A stretch of DNA of 52,358 bases from Candidatus Omnitrophota bacterium (GTDB lineage Bacteria; Omnitrophota; Gorgyraeia; Tantalellales; Tantalellaceae): assembly GCA_015231405.1 (NCBI GenBank), contig JADGBR010000024.1:3375-55732 (forward strand). The letters are read 5' to 3'. The translations under genes were made by a program, and so were the position numbers. A model generated the notes under the pieces. The model was not told where the DNA came from, made no database searches, and worked only from the letters and a program-made list of their open reading frames with translations. Below are positions 23,962 to 41,004 of this stretch, piece after piece. Within the stretch, counting starts at the first letter, position 1. The number at the start of each line of letters is the position of its first letter.

Positions 23962-24024
23962 AAAAGTAGAGTGATTATATCAGAAAAAAAAAAAATAGAT
24001 AAGAAATAATGGGAAATTGTTGGC

Positions 24025-24234
24025 CGGAGGTATTAGCTCAGTTGGGGGAGCGATAAAAGTGTCGTGACGCCATTGCAAGGCGTCTTGCCGCGTCTTTGCG
24101 AGGAGGCCCAGAGGCCGACGAAGCAATCCCTAAAAACTATCTCAATATTTGCGAATATAAATTTGTTGAGATCGCTTCGTCGCTTTGCTCCTCGCGATGG
24201 GCGGGTTATCCCCCAACTGAACTACTGCCTCTGG
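24025..24234. repeat. Composite palindromic element: tRNA 5'-half-like terminal inverted repeats enclosing a cgaagcaatcc-type palindrome
   Basis: Left arm cggaggtattagctcagttgggggagcgata; right arm revcomp cccagaggcagtagttcagttgggggataac; inner gcgaggaggcc...gacgaagcaatccc / gagatcgcttcgtcgctttgctcctcgc. Confidence 0.7.
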
Positions 24235-24344
24235 GTATAGGAACGGGATATTTGTAAATAATAAAAAAGTAAGATATGCTAATTTGCCCCTGGCAGAATT
24301 CTTAATTATACTTGTTATGTTAATATAATAAAAATCATGAAATC

Positions 24345-24427
24345 GAAAAGGTAAACCGGTTCAAAAACCGGGACACAAAGCTACGGGTCTAAGTCCCTTG
24401 TACTGGGATACGACAGCCGGGCTGCCG
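24345..24427 (+). ncRNA. Cyclic-di-GMP-I riboswitch (GEMM-I)
   Basis: GGTAAACCGGTTCAAAAACCGGGACACAAAGCTACGGGTCTA...TACGACAGCCGGGCTGCCG matches GEMM-I core (GGnAAACC, GGGACnCAAAGC, GGGTCTA, AGCCnGGnTGCCG); TATAAT at 24324-24329 upstream. Confidence 0.88.
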
Positions 24428-24432
24428 AAAAC

Positions 24433-27402
24433 ATGAAGAAAAATAATAATTTATATATCCCCGGTTCTATAACCTCAAAACCTTTAAGGGTTTTGCTGTC
24501 CTTTATCATCTCGTTTGTTCTTATTATGGATAATTCAATGCGGGCCTTTTCTTTCGGTCTTGATCCCGGAGCCGATATCGGGACCGGAAACCCCGTGAAC
24601 GAACTCAATATCGACACTTTCACTATTCCCGGACACCTTGGCGAGATAAAAAGAAAATTCGCCGGAAGTGGCGGGAATATAGTCATACACATACAGGACG
24701 CGCATTGCAATAAATTCGCCCAGGGAAAGATCTCGGAGATACTCGATTTCATCAATAAGGAATATGGGATAAAGACCATAAATCTCGAAGGCGGCACAGG
24801 CTCTTATGATCTCAGAACTTTCACTAAGATACCGAGCCTGGAGGTGCGCCGGGACGTGGCCGAGCATTATCTGGAGAAGGGAGACATAAACGGGGCGGAA
24901 TTCTTCGCCATAAATAATCCGGGAGAGACTGAGCTCTGGGGCGTCGAGGACAAGGAGCTTTACCTCGCCAATCTCAAAGTGTACCGGGATTCTCTGGGGT
25001 ATAAGGGGGAGGTCGATAAGTACATCGATGAACTCACGTATATTCTTTCCAATCTTAAACGCCACATTTTCGGCGAAAAGCTCCTTGAGCTGGACGAGGC
25101 TTACGCCGCTTATAAAGCGGGGACGCGCGATCTCAGGTCTTATCTTGATTTTCTGGTCAAAACGTGCGGCGCGAACGGTATAGATACGGCAGGGTTCCGG
25201 AACATATCGTCCCTTATGCGGTCCGTTTCTATGGAAGGAGGCATTAATTTTGACAAGGCGAATAAGGAGAAAGAGGTGCTCCTCGACGAGTTGAAAAAGG
25301 CCCTTTCGAAATACGACAAGGAAGAACTGGTCGCCAAAGTCCTTGATTTCAGGATTAAAAAAATATCCATGAAGGGGTTTTACGGGTATCTCATCGAAAA
25401 GGGGAGGAAATGCGGCATCGAGAAGGGCAGGTTCTCTATGCTGGAAAAATATCTCGAGTACGTGATCTGTTACGAGGGCGTCGACGTTTCGGCCGTCATG
25501 AAAGAGGTCGATTCCCTCGAGAACGCGATAAAAGAAAGATTATTCGCGAATGACGCCCAGCGGGAGCTCTCGCTATTGTCGAAAGACCTGGCGCTCTTAA
25601 AGAATATCTTCAGCATAAGCATAACGAAAGAAGATTACGGATATTATCTCGCGGCAAAGGACGGTTTTGCCGTCCGGAGATACATGGATTTTATCGAAAA
25701 GAACGCGCCTCTCTATAAGATCCAGGCGAGGCCTTCGCCCGGCATAGAGCGGCTTGATTCGCACAGAGAAGAGATCGGAGCTTTTTTTGAGTATTCCTTC
25801 AAGAGGGACGACGCTTTTATGAGGAACATGAAATTCGTCGAATGCCAGGGAGGTAAAAAAGCTGCGGTCGTCATGACCGGCGGTTTCCACACGGATAACC
25901 TGGCGGACCTCTTTAAGGGACAAGGCCTTTCCTATGTGTCGATAATCCCGAAATTCAAGAACGAGGACGGCTACGAGAGCCCGTATTTCGCTTTACTCGC
26001 CGGTGAAAGGGCCGACAGTTTCAGTGAGGCGCTAAGGCCTATTCTTACCCAGGCTTCCGCGATGCAGGTAGCCAGTAAATTATCGTCGCTCGGCGACAGC
26101 GTATGGGTAGATATCGAAATGGAGGCGTGGAGGGGGGCTGTGCATATAAGGGAGATGATCGAGAAGGAGAAAAAGGCTAGAGGGAGAGACGACATAAGGG
26201 TCAGACTTGTCAGGCGCGGCGCGGATGGCTCCATTGAAGAAGTGAAAAATAACGACGGGCAGCCGGTCGTCTTTAACAGTTTGGATAACATGAAAGAAGA
26301 TTCCCCGGCCATCGAACTCTCGATCGATGAACTCGTACAAAATGTCATGACCTACGAGATCATAGCGGCAAGCCCCGAAGCTCTGGGACAGATACTTTCC
26401 GGGAGTGTGGCGCCGGAAGATGTCCGGGTCGAAACGGCAACGGCCGTGTCGGCCGGCATAATGGAAAGGCTCTCCGGTAAGAGTTCTAAAGAGGGAGAGA
26501 AAACCTCCGGGGCCGAAAAGGGAAAGCCGGAAGTGCTGAATTTTGTGGCTGTTACGGATGGGAAAGGCAAAGTAAGGATCGTATTCGGCCCGGAAAACTC
26601 GACTTCTCACGCGCTTTTGAAAGAGAAAGGTTTCAAAGGGGTAGATATCAGGAAGGTGTGGTACGGTACCTTGAGCGCCGCGGGCGTCATCGCGAAGCCT
26701 CAGGGCGAGATGTCAGCCGAAGAGAAGGCGAAGGATGAAAAACTTATCAAGGATGTCTTCAAAGCCCGTGGTTTTCAGAGTAACCGGACCGTCCAGCTCA
26801 AGGACCCGGAGACGGTCGTCTTTTTCGTGGACCCGATAACGGGCAAGGTATTTCCCAAAGAAGACAGGACCGGCAAGCACGCCAACGTGCTTAACCAGAT
26901 CAAAGCAGAATACAAGAACGGTATCAACGCCCTATTAAACAACGAGGTGCCGGATCCGGTCAAAGCAGAGATCTTTGTCAGGATAAACGACGAAACAATG
27001 AATAGCGTTTATACGGTTCGGGATGGCAGGGTCGAACCGGTATTGGGAAGGGAAAGACTTCAGGAGATCTTGCGATCGATCGACGGTTATTTCGAACATG
27101 GCTCCGATATCCTTTTCAGGGTGTTCACCGGCGGGTACGAGTCCGAGGGAGAGGACGGCGCGAAAACGGAAGAAAAGGTCTCGACCACTCAGCAGTTCGC
27201 CGATCAGGAAGAATTAGATACTTTTGCCATGTATAAGCCGTCGCTGTACGCCGCCTTCCTCAGGTATCTCAAGAAGGCAGGCATAAACTTTTCGCGTCGA
27301 ACAGGAAACTTGCCGACGGCTCTCTCGACGAGTTCGCTAACGTGCCGATGCTGCGGAAGGAAGTCTATGACGAACTTAAGAAAGAGGGAGACATGGCTTT
27401 AA
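24433..27402 (+). CDS. Large exported protein; N-terminal half possibly TIKI/TraB/ChaN-like; probably the first part of a frameshifted gene continuing in 27342-31121
   Basis: Hydrophobic LRVLLSFIISFVLIMDNSMRAFSFG; VIHIQDAHCN...NLEGGTGSYDLR...VVMTGGFHTDNLADL; C-terminal tail from ~27290 is R/S/T/C-rich and looks out of frame. Confidence 0.7.
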   Translation: MKKNNNLYIPGSITSKPLRVLLSFIISFVLIMDNSMRAFSFGLDPGADIGTGNPVNELNIDTFTIPGHLGEIKRKFAGSGGNIVIHIQDAHCNKFAQGKISEILDFINKEYGIKTINLEGGTGSYDLRTFTKIPSLEVRRDVAEHYLEKGDINGAEFFAINNPGETELWGVEDKELYLANLKVYRDSLGYKGEVDKYIDELTYILSNLKRHIFGEKLLELDEAYAAYKAGTRDLRSYLDFLVKTCGANGIDTAGFRNISSLMRSVSMEGGINFDKANKEKEVLLDELKKALSKYDKEELVAKVLDFRIKKISMKGFYGYLIEKGRKCGIEKGRFSMLEKYLEYVICYEGVDVSAVMKEVDSLENAIKERLFANDAQRELSLLSKDLALLKNIFSISITKEDYGYYLAAKDGFAVRRYMDFIEKNAPLYKIQARPSPGIERLDSHREEIGAFFEYSFKRDDAFMRNMKFVECQGGKKAAVVMTGGFHTDNLADLFKGQGLSYVSIIPKFKNEDGYESPYFALLAGERADSFSEALRPILTQASAMQVASKLSSLGDSVWVDIEMEAWRGAVHIREMIEKEKKARGRDDIRVRLVRRGADGSIEEVKNNDGQPVVFNSLDNMKEDSPAIELSIDELVQNVMTYEIIAASPEALGQILSGSVAPEDVRVETATAVSAGIMERLSGKSSKEGEKTSGAEKGKPEVLNFVAVTDGKGKVRIVFGPENSTSHALLKEKGFKGVDIRKVWYGTLSAAGVIAKPQGEMSAEEKAKDEKLIKDVFKARGFQSNRTVQLKDPETVVFFVDPITGKVFPKEDRTGKHANVLNQIKAEYKNGINALLNNEVPDPVKAEIFVRINDETMNSVYTVRDGRVEPVLGRERLQEILRSIDGYFEHGSDILFRVFTGGYESEGEDGAKTEEKVSTTQQFADQEELDTFAMYKPSLYAAFLRYLKKAGINFSRRTGNLPTALSTSSLTCRCCGRKSMTNLRKRETWL

Positions 27403-30400
27403 GAAGTGATATGGATGTAGTGCAGTTGACGAGCCCTTTCGCCAGAAAAAAATACAGGGCCAGCCTCGGCAATAAAGGCGCCATGCTGGGTGACGTGATG
27501 GACAAGGCCGGCTCGGTAAAGGAACTGGCCGGGTTGAATATCCCGGAAGGGTTCATTCTCACGACCAATATGTACCGGAAATGGTTTAACAGTGATCGTA
27601 AGATCTCTTCTTCCGAAGACATGAAAAAGCAGATCAAATTCAACCTCGCGTTCATTTATTTGCAAACCGAGGCGAATCGTGCCGGAGAGGGAAAAAGTAA
27701 CGTGGAGTTGACGGTAGAAGCCGCCAAAATAGCCGGGACCATGGAGGATGATTTCGGCGGGTGGGATCATTTCAAGGTATCCGTAAGGAGCAGCCCCGCG
27801 GCTTCCGCGCCCGGCAAATTCGATACCGTAGCCGGTAAGCAGACACTCCCGGATATCTTCGCGGCTATAGATACTGTATTCAATTCCTGGCACGACCGCG
27901 TGGAAGGCGATAAGAACAAAGCGATCGGTATGGGTATAGTGGTACAGAGGATGGTGATCGGTGACGCCCAGGCTGTGGATGGCGCTAATAACATGATCCC
28001 AAGGGAAGTCGAGGTAGATGGCGAAACGCGGCCTGATCCTTCCTACATCCCTGATTCCTTTACCGGGGTATTTTTCACTCAGAATATCGATACCGGCCGC
28101 TCTGACCAGATAAGCGGGAACGTTAAGATCGAAGCGGATGGGAAGAAGGTAGTAGCGGGAATAGACGGAGGCGTACCGATACAATGGTTCCGGGAGATCG
28201 ACAGAGCCAAATGGAAAGAAGATCTCGTGAAAACTCCCAATGGAAGAGAAATAGCGAATTTCCTCGAAAAGAACAAGGCGGTTTATGAGGAGCTTCATAA
28301 GTACGGCAAAGCCCTCGAGAAGGAATACGGCTACCCCCAGGACATTGAGTTCACCGTGGAGAACGGCGCGCTTTATATACTCCAGGTGCGGGAAGCAAAG
28401 ACGACGCCCAGGAATACGATAAAATTCCTGAAAAATATGGTGGAAAGAAAAGACGTGAAAGCGATGACGGAACGGGAAGCATATAAAAGAGCTATTCCCG
28501 TATTGAAGATGTTAAATCAGAAGAACGTCAAAGCTGAGGATAAAATCCCCGCCAATCTAGCCGCGTCTTTTTCCGAAGCTTTCAGCGTAGGCGGCGCCGC
28601 GTCCGGGAAACTTGTGTTTTGCGATAATAAAGGCGACGGCGATGAGAAAGCGTGGGCTGAGGTCAAAAGGAAAATCGAAACATACGGGACAAAAGAAGTT
28701 ATACTCGTCGCCAGGGTCGCCGATATACCGGACCACATATACGACATGGTCGGCGGCATACTTACGCTTTACGGCGGAGGCTCGAGCCACGCGGCAGTGA
28801 ACACCAGGATGAGGAACCTGCCTTCTATCATAGGCATGTTTAACGGGCAGGCTGATATGGAGCTCGGGAAAACGCTGGATATAGGAGGTACGCTTTTCAG
28901 GGAAGGGGCCGAGATGACTTTTGACTCCGAAGGCGGGAAAGTTTATAAGAAGGTCGTTTCTCTCGAGGATAACGGTATAAAAAAGGATACAAGCGAGTTC
29001 GCGGATCTCGGGGCGATATTCGCCGAGGTGGAGAGACTTGAAAATAAAGCCCCGGACGCCGGATCCGGAGCTGGATCAGATACCGTCCAGGCGGTCGGTG
29101 AATGGAGCCGTATGGAAGATAAGGCTGTCCCGATCTGGAAATGCCGTGGGTCGAACGGTAGATCCATGTATATCGTGGCTAAGGGAATTATGGGGGATGA
29201 AAATGAGCTCGGGAACATAGAGGAACTCCTCAAAAAACGCGGAAGCGGGTTCATTAAAGTGGTCCTTTTTGAAGATGGTCTCGTCCTTAATCTTGGAGGG
29301 GATATTATGCATGATGAAATAAGCGAAATGATATCCGGCAGTTCCGGGACGCCTTATGTCGCCGGAGTTGCCACTTCTAGAAACGGAAAATTCAATGGCG
29401 TTGTAATGCAGGAAATGAGGAACAGCTATGACAATGAGAAGACGGGGCATGGCGTGACCGAGGGAATATTGGGAACGCTGAACAGCAAAGAGTTCAATCT
29501 CGGACATTTGTTCGAAGACGCGCGCCTGTCATGCGCGGGTAAAAACATCGGCGGCGAAAAGCCTGGGAAGATCGTGCGCGGAGAAGACCGGCGCCTGATC
29601 CTTGAGGAGGCCGTGACGCAGAAGGCCATTGTAAAAAATTTTACTGACGCCGAGCTCGAGGCGTGGCGCGTGGAAAGGACCGGCAGCGCCGGCTCCTCAT
29701 TAATTGACGTAAAGCTGGCGATAGAGGCGATAGGGGACGAAAATGAACGGGCTTCGGCCCATAGGGCCATGGAAAAATTCATGGAAAATGGGAGTATTAT
29801 CAGGGATTACCTGGTCTCTGAGGGACTTTTACCCGAAGATCCGGCTCGCGGCACAGCGGATCTTTCCCCGGTGAAATCCGAGTTAGATAAAATACCGGAC
29901 CTTTTAAAAAAGCCTATGGGCGCCGGCGGTTTCGGGATAGGCCGATCGAAGGTGGTCAATAAAGGTAAGTACGCACTGGGTGACCCCGACATGCTCGCGA
30001 TCGATATAGTTAATTACCTTAACGCGGTTGATAAGAGAAATGGTGCGGATAGCACACTTCTCGCGGAATATATACTCCATGAGGCTTTCGAAAGGTCAGG
30101 CCTCGGGCATTATGAAATAATACTGCTGACAAGCGTTATCTTCGGAAGAACGGTTTCAGTTTTAGGCGAATTGTACTCTCCGGAGGAACTCGCGGTTAAA
30201 TTGAAAGATCGCGCCTGGGCATCTGCGGCGCTTAGCAGGATGAATAAGGAAAATGGCGGCGTCGAAACGGATCTTGGGCGCGCTTTGAGAAGTTTTATTA
30301 ACGCCAGCGCTTACCTCCAGGAAAGCCCGGACCTTGACAAGATGACGATCGATGAGCTGGAACGGCTGGAAAAAGATCTCGCTTTCGAGAATGACGCCTC

Positions 30401-31121
30401 GACGAAGCTTCGCGTGATAAGCGCGAAGGTGAACGCCGCGCGCGCCCGGGCCGCACTCGGACATGTCGCGCCCGGCAAACACCTCGATATTGTGCTCGTC
30501 CCGATAAATAAGGATCAGCTATTCTTTGACGGTACGAGTTACATAAAGATCAATAGCGACGCCGTGCGCACGATCCAGAAGGATTACGGCGTGAACGTCC
30601 GAGCGATCTATTACGCTATCGGCGACAAGGAGAGCTTTGACGAGGCCGCCGAGAAGGCCGCGAAAATGATGGGGGATGACGGTAAGGCCAGGCTCCTTGT
30701 CTATCAGAACGTGAAGGAAGAGGAAAAAGGCGGGGAATTCAAGAAGTTAGAGCTCTCTCTGGAGGTGAAAAACGTCATTGGGGAAAGGCTCACGGGCGTC
30801 GTCGCCGGCACTTTCGAGCCCGGTGTGGAAACCCAACGGTTCTCTATAACCATGCTTGTGACGCTGGGGCTGGGCCTCAATGAGGCGAACCGCGAACCGG
30901 ATAAAGCCGGTACGTTAAAAGACGCCATAATCCCTTTAATGAAAAGGATGGCCAGCAATGAGGCTGAGATAGACAGGTTCATGGAAGAAGCGAATGGGGA
31001 TCTTAATAAGTTCCTCGAAAAAGTATATCGCGGCGATATCAAACTCGACATCAAAAAAATAAACTATGAGGAGATCCGCGATTTCATGGAATCCGAAGCG
31101 GACGTGCTCCAGTCGCTGTAA
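27342..31121 (+). CDS. PPDK/PEP-synthase-like protein (ATP-grasp + phosphohistidine domain) with long unknown C-terminal extension
   Basis: SLGNKGAMLGDV; VSVRSSPAASAPGKFDTVAG; ALYILQVREAKTT; TLYGGGSSHAAVNTRMRNLPSIIG (mobile His loop). Coherent protein sequence in this frame extends upstream of 27342. Confidence 0.8.
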   Translation: MPMLRKEVYDELKKEGDMALRSDMDVVQLTSPFARKKYRASLGNKGAMLGDVMDKAGSVKELAGLNIPEGFILTTNMYRKWFNSDRKISSSEDMKKQIKFNLAFIYLQTEANRAGEGKSNVELTVEAAKIAGTMEDDFGGWDHFKVSVRSSPAASAPGKFDTVAGKQTLPDIFAAIDTVFNSWHDRVEGDKNKAIGMGIVVQRMVIGDAQAVDGANNMIPREVEVDGETRPDPSYIPDSFTGVFFTQNIDTGRSDQISGNVKIEADGKKVVAGIDGGVPIQWFREIDRAKWKEDLVKTPNGREIANFLEKNKAVYEELHKYGKALEKEYGYPQDIEFTVENGALYILQVREAKTTPRNTIKFLKNMVERKDVKAMTEREAYKRAIPVLKMLNQKNVKAEDKIPANLAASFSEAFSVGGAASGKLVFCDNKGDGDEKAWAEVKRKIETYGTKEVILVARVADIPDHIYDMVGGILTLYGGGSSHAAVNTRMRNLPSIIGMFNGQADMELGKTLDIGGTLFREGAEMTFDSEGGKVYKKVVSLEDNGIKKDTSEFADLGAIFAEVERLENKAPDAGSGAGSDTVQAVGEWSRMEDKAVPIWKCRGSNGRSMYIVAKGIMGDENELGNIEELLKKRGSGFIKVVLFEDGLVLNLGGDIMHDEISEMISGSSGTPYVAGVATSRNGKFNGVVMQEMRNSYDNEKTGHGVTEGILGTLNSKEFNLGHLFEDARLSCAGKNIGGEKPGKIVRGEDRRLILEEAVTQKAIVKNFTDAELEAWRVERTGSAGSSLIDVKLAIEAIGDENERASAHRAMEKFMENGSIIRDYLVSEGLLPEDPARGTADLSPVKSELDKIPDLLKKPMGAGGFGIGRSKVVNKGKYALGDPDMLAIDIVNYLNAVDKRNGADSTLLAEYILHEAFERSGLGHYEIILLTSVIFGRTVSVLGELYSPEELAVKLKDRAWASAALSRMNKENGGVETDLGRALRSFINASAYLQESPDLDKMTIDELERLEKDLAFENDASTKLRVISAKVNAARARAALGHVAPGKHLDIVLVPINKDQLFFDGTSYIKINSDAVRTIQKDYGVNVRAIYYAIGDKESFDEAAEKAAKMMGDDGKARLLVYQNVKEEEKGGEFKKLELSLEVKNVIGERLTGVVAGTFEPGVETQRFSITMLVTLGLGLNEANREPDKAGTLKDAIIPLMKRMASNEAEIDRFMEEANGDLNKFLEKVYRGDIKLDIKKINYEEIRDFMESEADVLQSL

Positions 31122-31486: not shown

Positions 31487-32248
31487 ATGCAGTCACTATT
31501 CTACGATAACACGTTCTATTTCTTCCCGATCCTCGCGGTTGTCGTGGGTGCTTTGTTCATCACGCGCGGGTTTCGTCAGATGCCGGGGAGTGTCATTACG
31601 AGATATTTTATACCGGCTCTTTTGCTGGCCGACGCGGTCCTTTTGTGGCCGGGGATAGATTCGGCCGAGCCGTCGAAATTCATCGGGGCCGGCGTATTCA
31701 CGGCTGCGGTTCTACTGATACTCGCGGATGTTATCATGGGCCTTTTTTCGGACGCGAGCGTCTATAACGCCGAGAATAGGCGCGAGAACGATTATTTCAT
31801 CCACGCGAACATAATATACGATGCTTTGCAGAATGTCGCCGCGAAAAGCCTGGGGGCGCTGGTGATCATAGAGAGAAGGGTTTCCCTCGAGGGTTTCTTA
31901 TCCGGCGGCGTCCCTTTCGACTCCGACCTCGACGCGGACGTCCTGGCGTCATTATTCCTCAAAGAGTCGGTGCTCCATGACGGCGGCGTTATAGTGAGCA
32001 TGGGTCGGATCAAGATGATAAAAGGGATACTTCCCTTGTCCGCAAACCCCGCGATATCCCACAAATACGGCACAAGGCACAGGGCGGCGATAGGTATCAC
32101 CGAAGAGACCGACGCCATAGCCTTCGTCGCTTCCGAAGAGAGGAACACGATAAGCGTCGCGTTCTACGGTAACCTTGTGAAGATAACTTCAAAGGGAGAG
32201 ATGGAGGCAGCCCTTCAGCAGGCGAGGCGGGCGGTGAGACCGCGTTGA
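31487..32248 (+). CDS. Diadenylate cyclase (DAC domain, CdaA-like membrane protein)
   Basis: N-terminal TM segments; GALVIIERR...SLFLKESVLHDGGVIV...GILPLS...YGTRHRAAIGITEETDAIAFVASEERNTISVA. Confidence 0.87.
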   Translation: MQSLFYDNTFYFFPILAVVVGALFITRGFRQMPGSVITRYFIPALLLADAVLLWPGIDSAEPSKFIGAGVFTAAVLLILADVIMGLFSDASVYNAENRRENDYFIHANIIYDALQNVAAKSLGALVIIERRVSLEGFLSGGVPFDSDLDADVLASLFLKESVLHDGGVIVSMGRIKMIKGILPLSANPAISHKYGTRHRAAIGITEETDAIAFVASEERNTISVAFYGNLVKITSKGEMEAALQQARRAVRPR

Positions 32249-40278: not shown

Positions 40279-41004
40279 ATGGGTATATTGGAAACTAAAG
40301 AGGACATAAAGCAACTGGTCGAGAGTTTGAATTTCAAGGAGAAGGTCGATAGGTCATTAGCTCTCATTGACGAAGCGTACGCGAAATACGGCGATGCTCT
40401 GGTAGTGGCTAACAGCCTTGGTAAGGATTCGGTGCTTGTGTGGGACCTGGCTAAAAGGGTCAGCCCGAAGATCAGGGGTTTTATAGTTACAACAAGGTTC
40501 AAACCCAAAGAGACCGTCAAATTCATGAACGAGACGGTCGCGAGATACCCGGAACTCAAAGTTTTCGATAACAAGCAGGATATCCCCGAGAGGCTGTATG
40601 AAACCCAGCCGGATCTCTGCTGTGACATATTAAAGGTAAAGCCCACGAGGGACGCGATAAAGAAAATGGGTGTGGACTGCTGGGTCACGGGGCTTCGTTG
40701 CACGGAAGGGCGGACGCGTACAGATTTCAGGGAAGTGGAAGAGAGGGATAAGGGACTGGTGAAGCTGAACCCGATACTGGTCTGGAAGGAACGGGAAGTG
40801 TGGCAGTACCTGGCGATCTACGATGTGAAAGTGAACCAGCTGTACCGGGAAGGTTACAGGTCTCTCGGCTGTGAGCCCTGCTCGAGAATAACTACGGACG
40901 ACAATGAACGTGCGGGCAGATGGATAGGTACCAGCAAATGCGGCGGGGAATGCGGTATACATACGAGGCCTTTGAAAGAGAATGACGGAGGCGAGAGAAA
41001 ATAG
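40279..41004 (+). CDS. cysH: APS/PAPS reductase
   Basis: VVANSLGKDSVLVWDLA; DLCCDILKVKPT; GCEPCSRIT (CC...CxxC of Fe-S APS reductases); CGGECGIH. Confidence 0.87.
   Translation: MGILETKEDIKQLVESLNFKEKVDRSLALIDEAYAKYGDALVVANSLGKDSVLVWDLAKRVSPKIRGFIVTTRFKPKETVKFMNETVARYPELKVFDNKQDIPERLYETQPDLCCDILKVKPTRDAIKKMGVDCWVTGLRCTEGRTRTDFREVEERDKGLVKLNPILVWKEREVWQYLAIYDVKVNQLYREGYRSLGCEPCSRITTDDNERAGRWIGTSKCGGECGIHTRPLKENDGGERK

Follow-up and report, generated by a model that had tools for sequence, protein, structure and literature searches.

Results

A c-di-GMP-I aptamer precedes an exported-protein gene

The locus lies in a 52,358-nt stretch of an Omnitrophota contig (hereafter the window), where a riboswitch aptamer on the forward strand runs almost directly into a long open reading frame, ORF A, which is followed by a second long frame, ORF B (Table 1). 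An Rfam cmscan of the window matched the c-di-GMP-I family RF01051 at 24340-24429 over the full length of the model (positions 1-87 of 87), with 82.4 bits and an E-value of 8.6e-15 for the window. This score stands well above the gathering score of 35 bits, and 100% of the consensus pairs are canonical. The original prediction of a GEMM-I aptamer at this site is borne out; its proposed end at 24427 was 2 nt short of the Rfam boundary. Among approximately 150 matches listed from 59 related genomes, 54 of which contain the family, this aptamer has the third-best score, and the source genome (3.66 Mb, 93 contigs) holds four RF01051 matches in all.

Table 1 Features of the riboswitch locus, in window coordinates.
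Feature	Position	Strand	Basis
Alternative promoter-like site, TTGCCC-17-TATACT	24284-24312	+	promoter scan
TATAAT, possible -10 element	24324-24329	+	read from sequence
P1 extension, 5' strand UCAUG (predicted start-codon partner)	24335-24339	+	MFE and constrained folds; shuffles
c-di-GMP-I (GEMM-I) aptamer	24340-24429	+	RF01051 covariance-model match
Inner P1 strand UCG (predicted partner CGA, 24426-24428)	24343-24345	+	folds
First aptamer hairpin, loop CAAA (most relatives: GNRA)	24356-24371	+	
Second aptamer hairpin with CUAAG/UACG receptor-like internal loop	24379-24423	+	Rfam alignment, predicted pairs
P1 extension, 3' strand CAUGA (holds AUG 24433-24435)	24432-24436	+	MFE and constrained folds
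ORF A, 989 aa, predicted exported protein	24433-27402	+	open frame, signal peptide
ORF B, 1,259 aa, PPDK_N and PEP-utilisers domains, different frame	27342-31121	+	

GEMM-I variants that recognise 3',3'-cGAMP carry an A where the Vc2 aptamer has G20. In the Rfam alignment, we map the ligand-contacting bases G20 and C92 of Vc2 to a G and a C of the present aptamer, which points to c-di-GMP, and not cGAMP, as the expected ligand; the cGAMP variant that had been raised for this site does not apply, the selectivity position being G and not A. The pair adjacent to the binding site is U-A instead of C-G. The tetraloop is CAAA, keeping the three As but not the G of a GNRA loop. GNRA loops occur in 110 of 114 sampled aptamers and CAAA in only one, the present aptamer, where it may weaken tetraloop docking. 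In the Cd1 aptamer, the A24-26U substitution abolishes binding (PMC9262584).

Only a 3-nt spacer, AAC (24430-24432), separates the aptamer from ATG 24433, so that the aptamer is fused to the start codon much as predicted. Neither an SD-like tetramer upstream of this ATG nor an intrinsic terminator between it and the aptamer was found, again as originally proposed, and the sole near-downstream hairpin on the forward strand (24476-24495) lies within the coding region and lacks a T-run. Upstream of 24433, the ORF A frame stays open for another 26 codons, none of them ATG, GTG or TTG. Twelve paralogues encoded by the source genome, together with seven homologues, begin in the register of 24433 with a hydrophobic signal peptide of ~25-40 aa, and several tblastn alignments of paralogues run from residue 1 of ORF A; this shared register supports ATG 24433 as the likely start codon. 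In a comparison covering the window and a set of paralogues from the source genome, most of these paralogues have no SD, while genes such as those at 40279, 44645 and 47006 do have one. The missing SD is therefore a habit of the gene family here and not specific to the riboswitch.

A transcript driven by the possible -10 element would begin at the P1 extension described below. The alternative promoter-like site was the only one listed by the promoter scan, which gave no excess over shuffles. Further upstream, a REP-like element (24024-24234), which contains a nested repeat and is bounded by imperfect inverted ends of 26 nt, has 48 matches in the source genome; a tRNA within this repeat was considered and discarded, ARAGORN finding none.

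The downstream gene is probably interrupted

The N-terminal domain of ORF A (residues ~57-530) occurs 42 times in the 3.66-Mb source genome, marking a large family of exported proteins that has no name; in relatives, it lies in open frames that reach 11,228 aa. No match to it was found in Pfam, NCBIfam or among PDB folds, and an AlphaFold2 model with a pLDDT of 85 gave a best PDB E-value of 0.069 and a TM-score of 0.09. The TIKI-like (TIKI/TraB) identity suggested earlier is accordingly not upheld by any of these resources; a large helical insertion could mask a relation. Giant open reading frames with few annotated domains are common in Omnitrophota (PMC10066038), and that study mentions neither riboswitches nor c-di-GMP.

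Near 27.29 kb, the two ORFs overlap but are read in different frames. In two related genomes (G008:C233 and G014:C14), matches to both lie in a single frame, so one gene is probably interrupted here, with ORF B the rest of ORF A's gene; the break may stem from an assembly error, a real frameshift or recoding. The picture of one intact giant gene is not supported, given the frame clash between the 989-aa ORF A and the 1,259-aa ORF B. The proposed PPDK-like character is real in that a PPDK_N domain (PF01326) is present, but it belongs to the second frame and not to one intact gene.

A diadenylate cyclase gene (31487-32248) had been pointed out in the same neighbourhood. Its product is c-di-AMP, the wrong dinucleotide for this aptamer, so the gene lends no support to a c-di-GMP switch. 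It adjoins a group II intron (RF02001, RF01998; 32517-34196) with an ORF of 462 aa. The source genome has 12 GGDEF matches and can therefore make c-di-GMP.

The P1 helix is predicted to extend across the start codon

Folding of 24320-24460 gave a minimum free energy of -30.2 kcal/mol (z -2.63). The P1 helix predicted to close the junction of the aptamer consists of UCG/CGA, a 3x3 internal loop and then UCAUG/CAUGA, with 24335-24339 pairing to 24432-24436 (24335-24436, 24336-24435, 24337-24434, 24338-24433 and 24339-24432), which carries P1 across the entire start codon. The extension contributes approximately -5 kcal/mol and the inner UCG/CGA alone approximately -0.5 kcal/mol; in these models, nearly all of the P1 stability is supplied by the helix that bears the AUG.

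Pairing of the start codon with the 5' flank had a probability of 1.00, compared with a mean of 0.19 when this flank was shuffled (preserving base composition only, with the aptamer core replaced by a forced closed hairpin; p=0.004). The same procedure gave p=0.004 and p=0.044 at two other loci where the aptamer abuts a start codon (L243 and L238), and most of the remaining abutting cases were not individually significant. Combined by Fisher's method over 16 abutting cases picked by eye, the value was p=0.009, driven mainly by three cases.

In the ligand-free model, the AUG is unpaired with a probability of only ~0.01-0.05 on transcripts up to 24465, so the switch could be permanently closed. 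Either it is nearly always closed, or the helix of approximately -5 kcal/mol would be loose enough for a ribosome to compete for the site when no ligand is bound. No dedicated anti-sequester was found, the competitor formed by the first codons being equalled or exceeded by 32% of synonymous recodings. An anti-aptamer of this kind (CCCCGGUU with AACCGGG) appeared in one longer minimum-free-energy fold and was rejected as no better than such recodings.

The layout recurs on gspC-like genes

Of the 145 aptamers for which sufficient sequence was available downstream, 11 are followed within 15 nt by an ATG that opens a long frame. A better, SD-preceded start lies downstream in three of these 11, which leaves about eight abutting cases, two of them in the source genome. 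A terminator-like run of at least four Ts is found within 120 nt downstream of 137 of the 145 aptamers. When 386 genomes from the phylum were searched for the pattern, 66 contained matches, as against three control matches, and only a minority of the matches open convincing genes. At the 20 nearest homologue loci of ORF A, no aptamer was present (0 of 20); we therefore rejected the idea that aptamer and gene are conserved together, and these loci offer no orthologue against which to test the present instance.

The strongest independent support for a recurrent layout with the AUG in P1 comes from a gspC-like gene (T2SSC/PDZ) in three genera (G181, G190 and G398), at which the aptamer ends a few nucleotides before the ATG. 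At these loci (L276, L277 and L279), the start-codon-fused c-di-GMP-I aptamers score 78-80 bits in Rfam. Their P1 extensions differ in sequence (CAUGA/UCAUG, AUGA/UCAU and AUAAAC/GUUUAU), while at least the AU of the AUG is predicted to be paired, and in one pair adjoining the start codon both bases are replaced, G-C becoming A-U; these pairs were read by hand from a four-sequence comparison. Taken alone, the G398 locus has a shuffle p of 0.12.

Aptamers of this class were also seen in other settings. At a second abutting site in the source genome (L002, contig C27), the ATG is likewise SD-less, and a 5' segment, AAAUAGUG, is fully complementary to CACUAUUU directly after the ATG; AAAUAGUG is also able to form a local upstream hairpin and so could switch partners. 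In five genomes, an aptamer with a terminator-like hairpin lies 5' of IS200-like Y1 transposase genes (PF01797; L091, L119, L131, L140, L153 and L166), where second-messenger control of REP-associated transposases is possible. Another aptamer with a terminator-like hairpin precedes a GH113 glycoside hydrolase gene (L029), and similar proteins are encoded downstream of aptamers in several other genomes of the same family.

Discussion

A proposed translational OFF switch built from the aptamer

Since the leader contains neither an SD nor a terminator, the aptamer itself must act as the expression platform. The original prediction had drawn the same conclusion, and the modelled P1 extension containing the AUG now makes it concrete. 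We propose a translational OFF switch, in which a c-di-GMP-I riboswitch uses its own P1 helix as the expression platform, and assign this reading a probability of roughly 0.6. The RNA from 24335 to 24436 would fold as the aptamer, with five extra P1 pairs taking in all bases of the AUG. Binding of c-di-GMP at the base of the aptamer would stabilise P1, keep the start codon paired and block 30S initiation. At low c-di-GMP, P1 (approximately -5 kcal/mol as modelled) would open often enough for the SD-less, A/U-rich site to be used. Direct results of the computation are the aptamer together with its key bases, the choice of start codon, the predicted helix with its excess over shuffles, and the gspC-like layout in three genera. 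We infer that the ligand binds, that it turns expression off and that translation, not transcription, is the regulated step. We hold, at slightly less than even odds, that the locus belongs to a recurrent Omnitrophota sub-type of c-di-GMP-I riboswitches, in which P1 runs through the start codon of SD-less exported or secretion-related genes and the aptamer makes up almost the entire leader and the switch.

Other readings of the locus fit the data less well. The aptamer could be a relic, left from another gene or attached to a decaying one and without any regulatory role, as the split of the gene over two frames, the unusual CAAA loop and the absence of the aptamer from homologues would allow. 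We consider this unlikely, given an aptamer that ranks third in score among the ~150 listed, two ORFs that are otherwise long and open, and a frame clash that may reflect an assembly error. It is also improbable that the aptamer binds c-di-GMP to act on transcription or RNA stability, through Rho access, a terminator deeper in the coding region or protection of the 5' end, with the pairing of the AUG incidental. The T-runs within 120 nt of nearly all c-di-GMP-I aptamers in relatives are consistent with terminators, but this locus has none and its coding-region hairpin has no T-run, while the AUG helix outperforms shuffled flanks and recurs on gspC-like genes.

An ON switch, in which the ligand remodels P1 and frees the AUG, would make sense of a closed ground state, since the AUG is already paired in the ligand-free folds, and GEMM-type switches act in either direction (PMC9262584). 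The class I ligand, however, sits at and stabilises P1, the very helix that holds the AUG, and no alternative ligand-bound structure freeing the AUG was found, making this reading very unlikely. Translation from a downstream start such as TTG 24493, which has AAGGG just 5' of it and would give the aptamer a normal leader, is likewise very unlikely, as it would cost residues 1-20 and with them the charged segment of the signal peptide, and several paralogues align from residue 1.

If the proposed translational OFF switch is correct, a c-di-GMP switch can be reduced to its aptamer, dispensing with a terminator, an SD and a separate hairpin. Such a very short OFF module would be directly testable in a laboratory strain and suggests a route by which second messengers could control SD-less genes. 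It would also link c-di-GMP to families of exported giant proteins and to type II secretion in an uncultured phylum.

Relation to known riboswitches

The aptamer class, its use in translational OFF control (Vc2) and direct occlusion in other riboswitch classes (PMC10907184) are already known. In the papers searched, we found no description of an SD-less c-di-GMP-I leader whose start codon is paired within P1, although an earlier report of such pairing in GEMM may exist. Compared with the 3',3'-cGAMP variants of GEMM-I, the present aptamer shares the fold but has G at the selectivity position. Ordinary c-di-GMP-I leaders of the same phylum, such as that of the GH113 gene, contain the same aptamer class, downstream of which come a terminator-like hairpin and an SD, typically 50-150 nt before the start; neither is present in the leader described here.

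A close parallel in ligand and direction is Vc2, from the tfoY gene of V. cholerae, a translational OFF c-di-GMP-I switch in which the stability of P1 is reported to be the key factor (PMC9262584). Vc2 shares its aptamer class with the present locus, and its control by P1 stability corresponds to what we propose here (PMC9262584, PMC7371385). The title of Inuzuka 2018, cited in PMC9262584, describes the masked ribosome-binding site of Vc2 as distant from the aptamer, whereas here the start codon itself, only 3 nt beyond the aptamer, is predicted to be part of the P1 extension in a leader that has no SD.

In its architecture, the predicted switch resembles the direct-occlusion riboswitches SAM-II, SAM-III, preQ1-I and preQ1-II (group 1 in PMC10907184), in which aptamer and expression platform form one unit; the same review treats c-di-GMP switches under strand exchange and not under direct occlusion. 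In the direct-occlusion group, a ligand-stabilised structure hides the initiation site, and the same is predicted here, with all three bases of the AUG paired inside the structure that the ligand would stabilise. Those riboswitches, however, hide an SD inside the aptamer, whereas here it is the AUG that would be hidden. The proposed switch would thus work like the direct-occlusion group, but as its aptamer contains no SD, we do not file it as a member.
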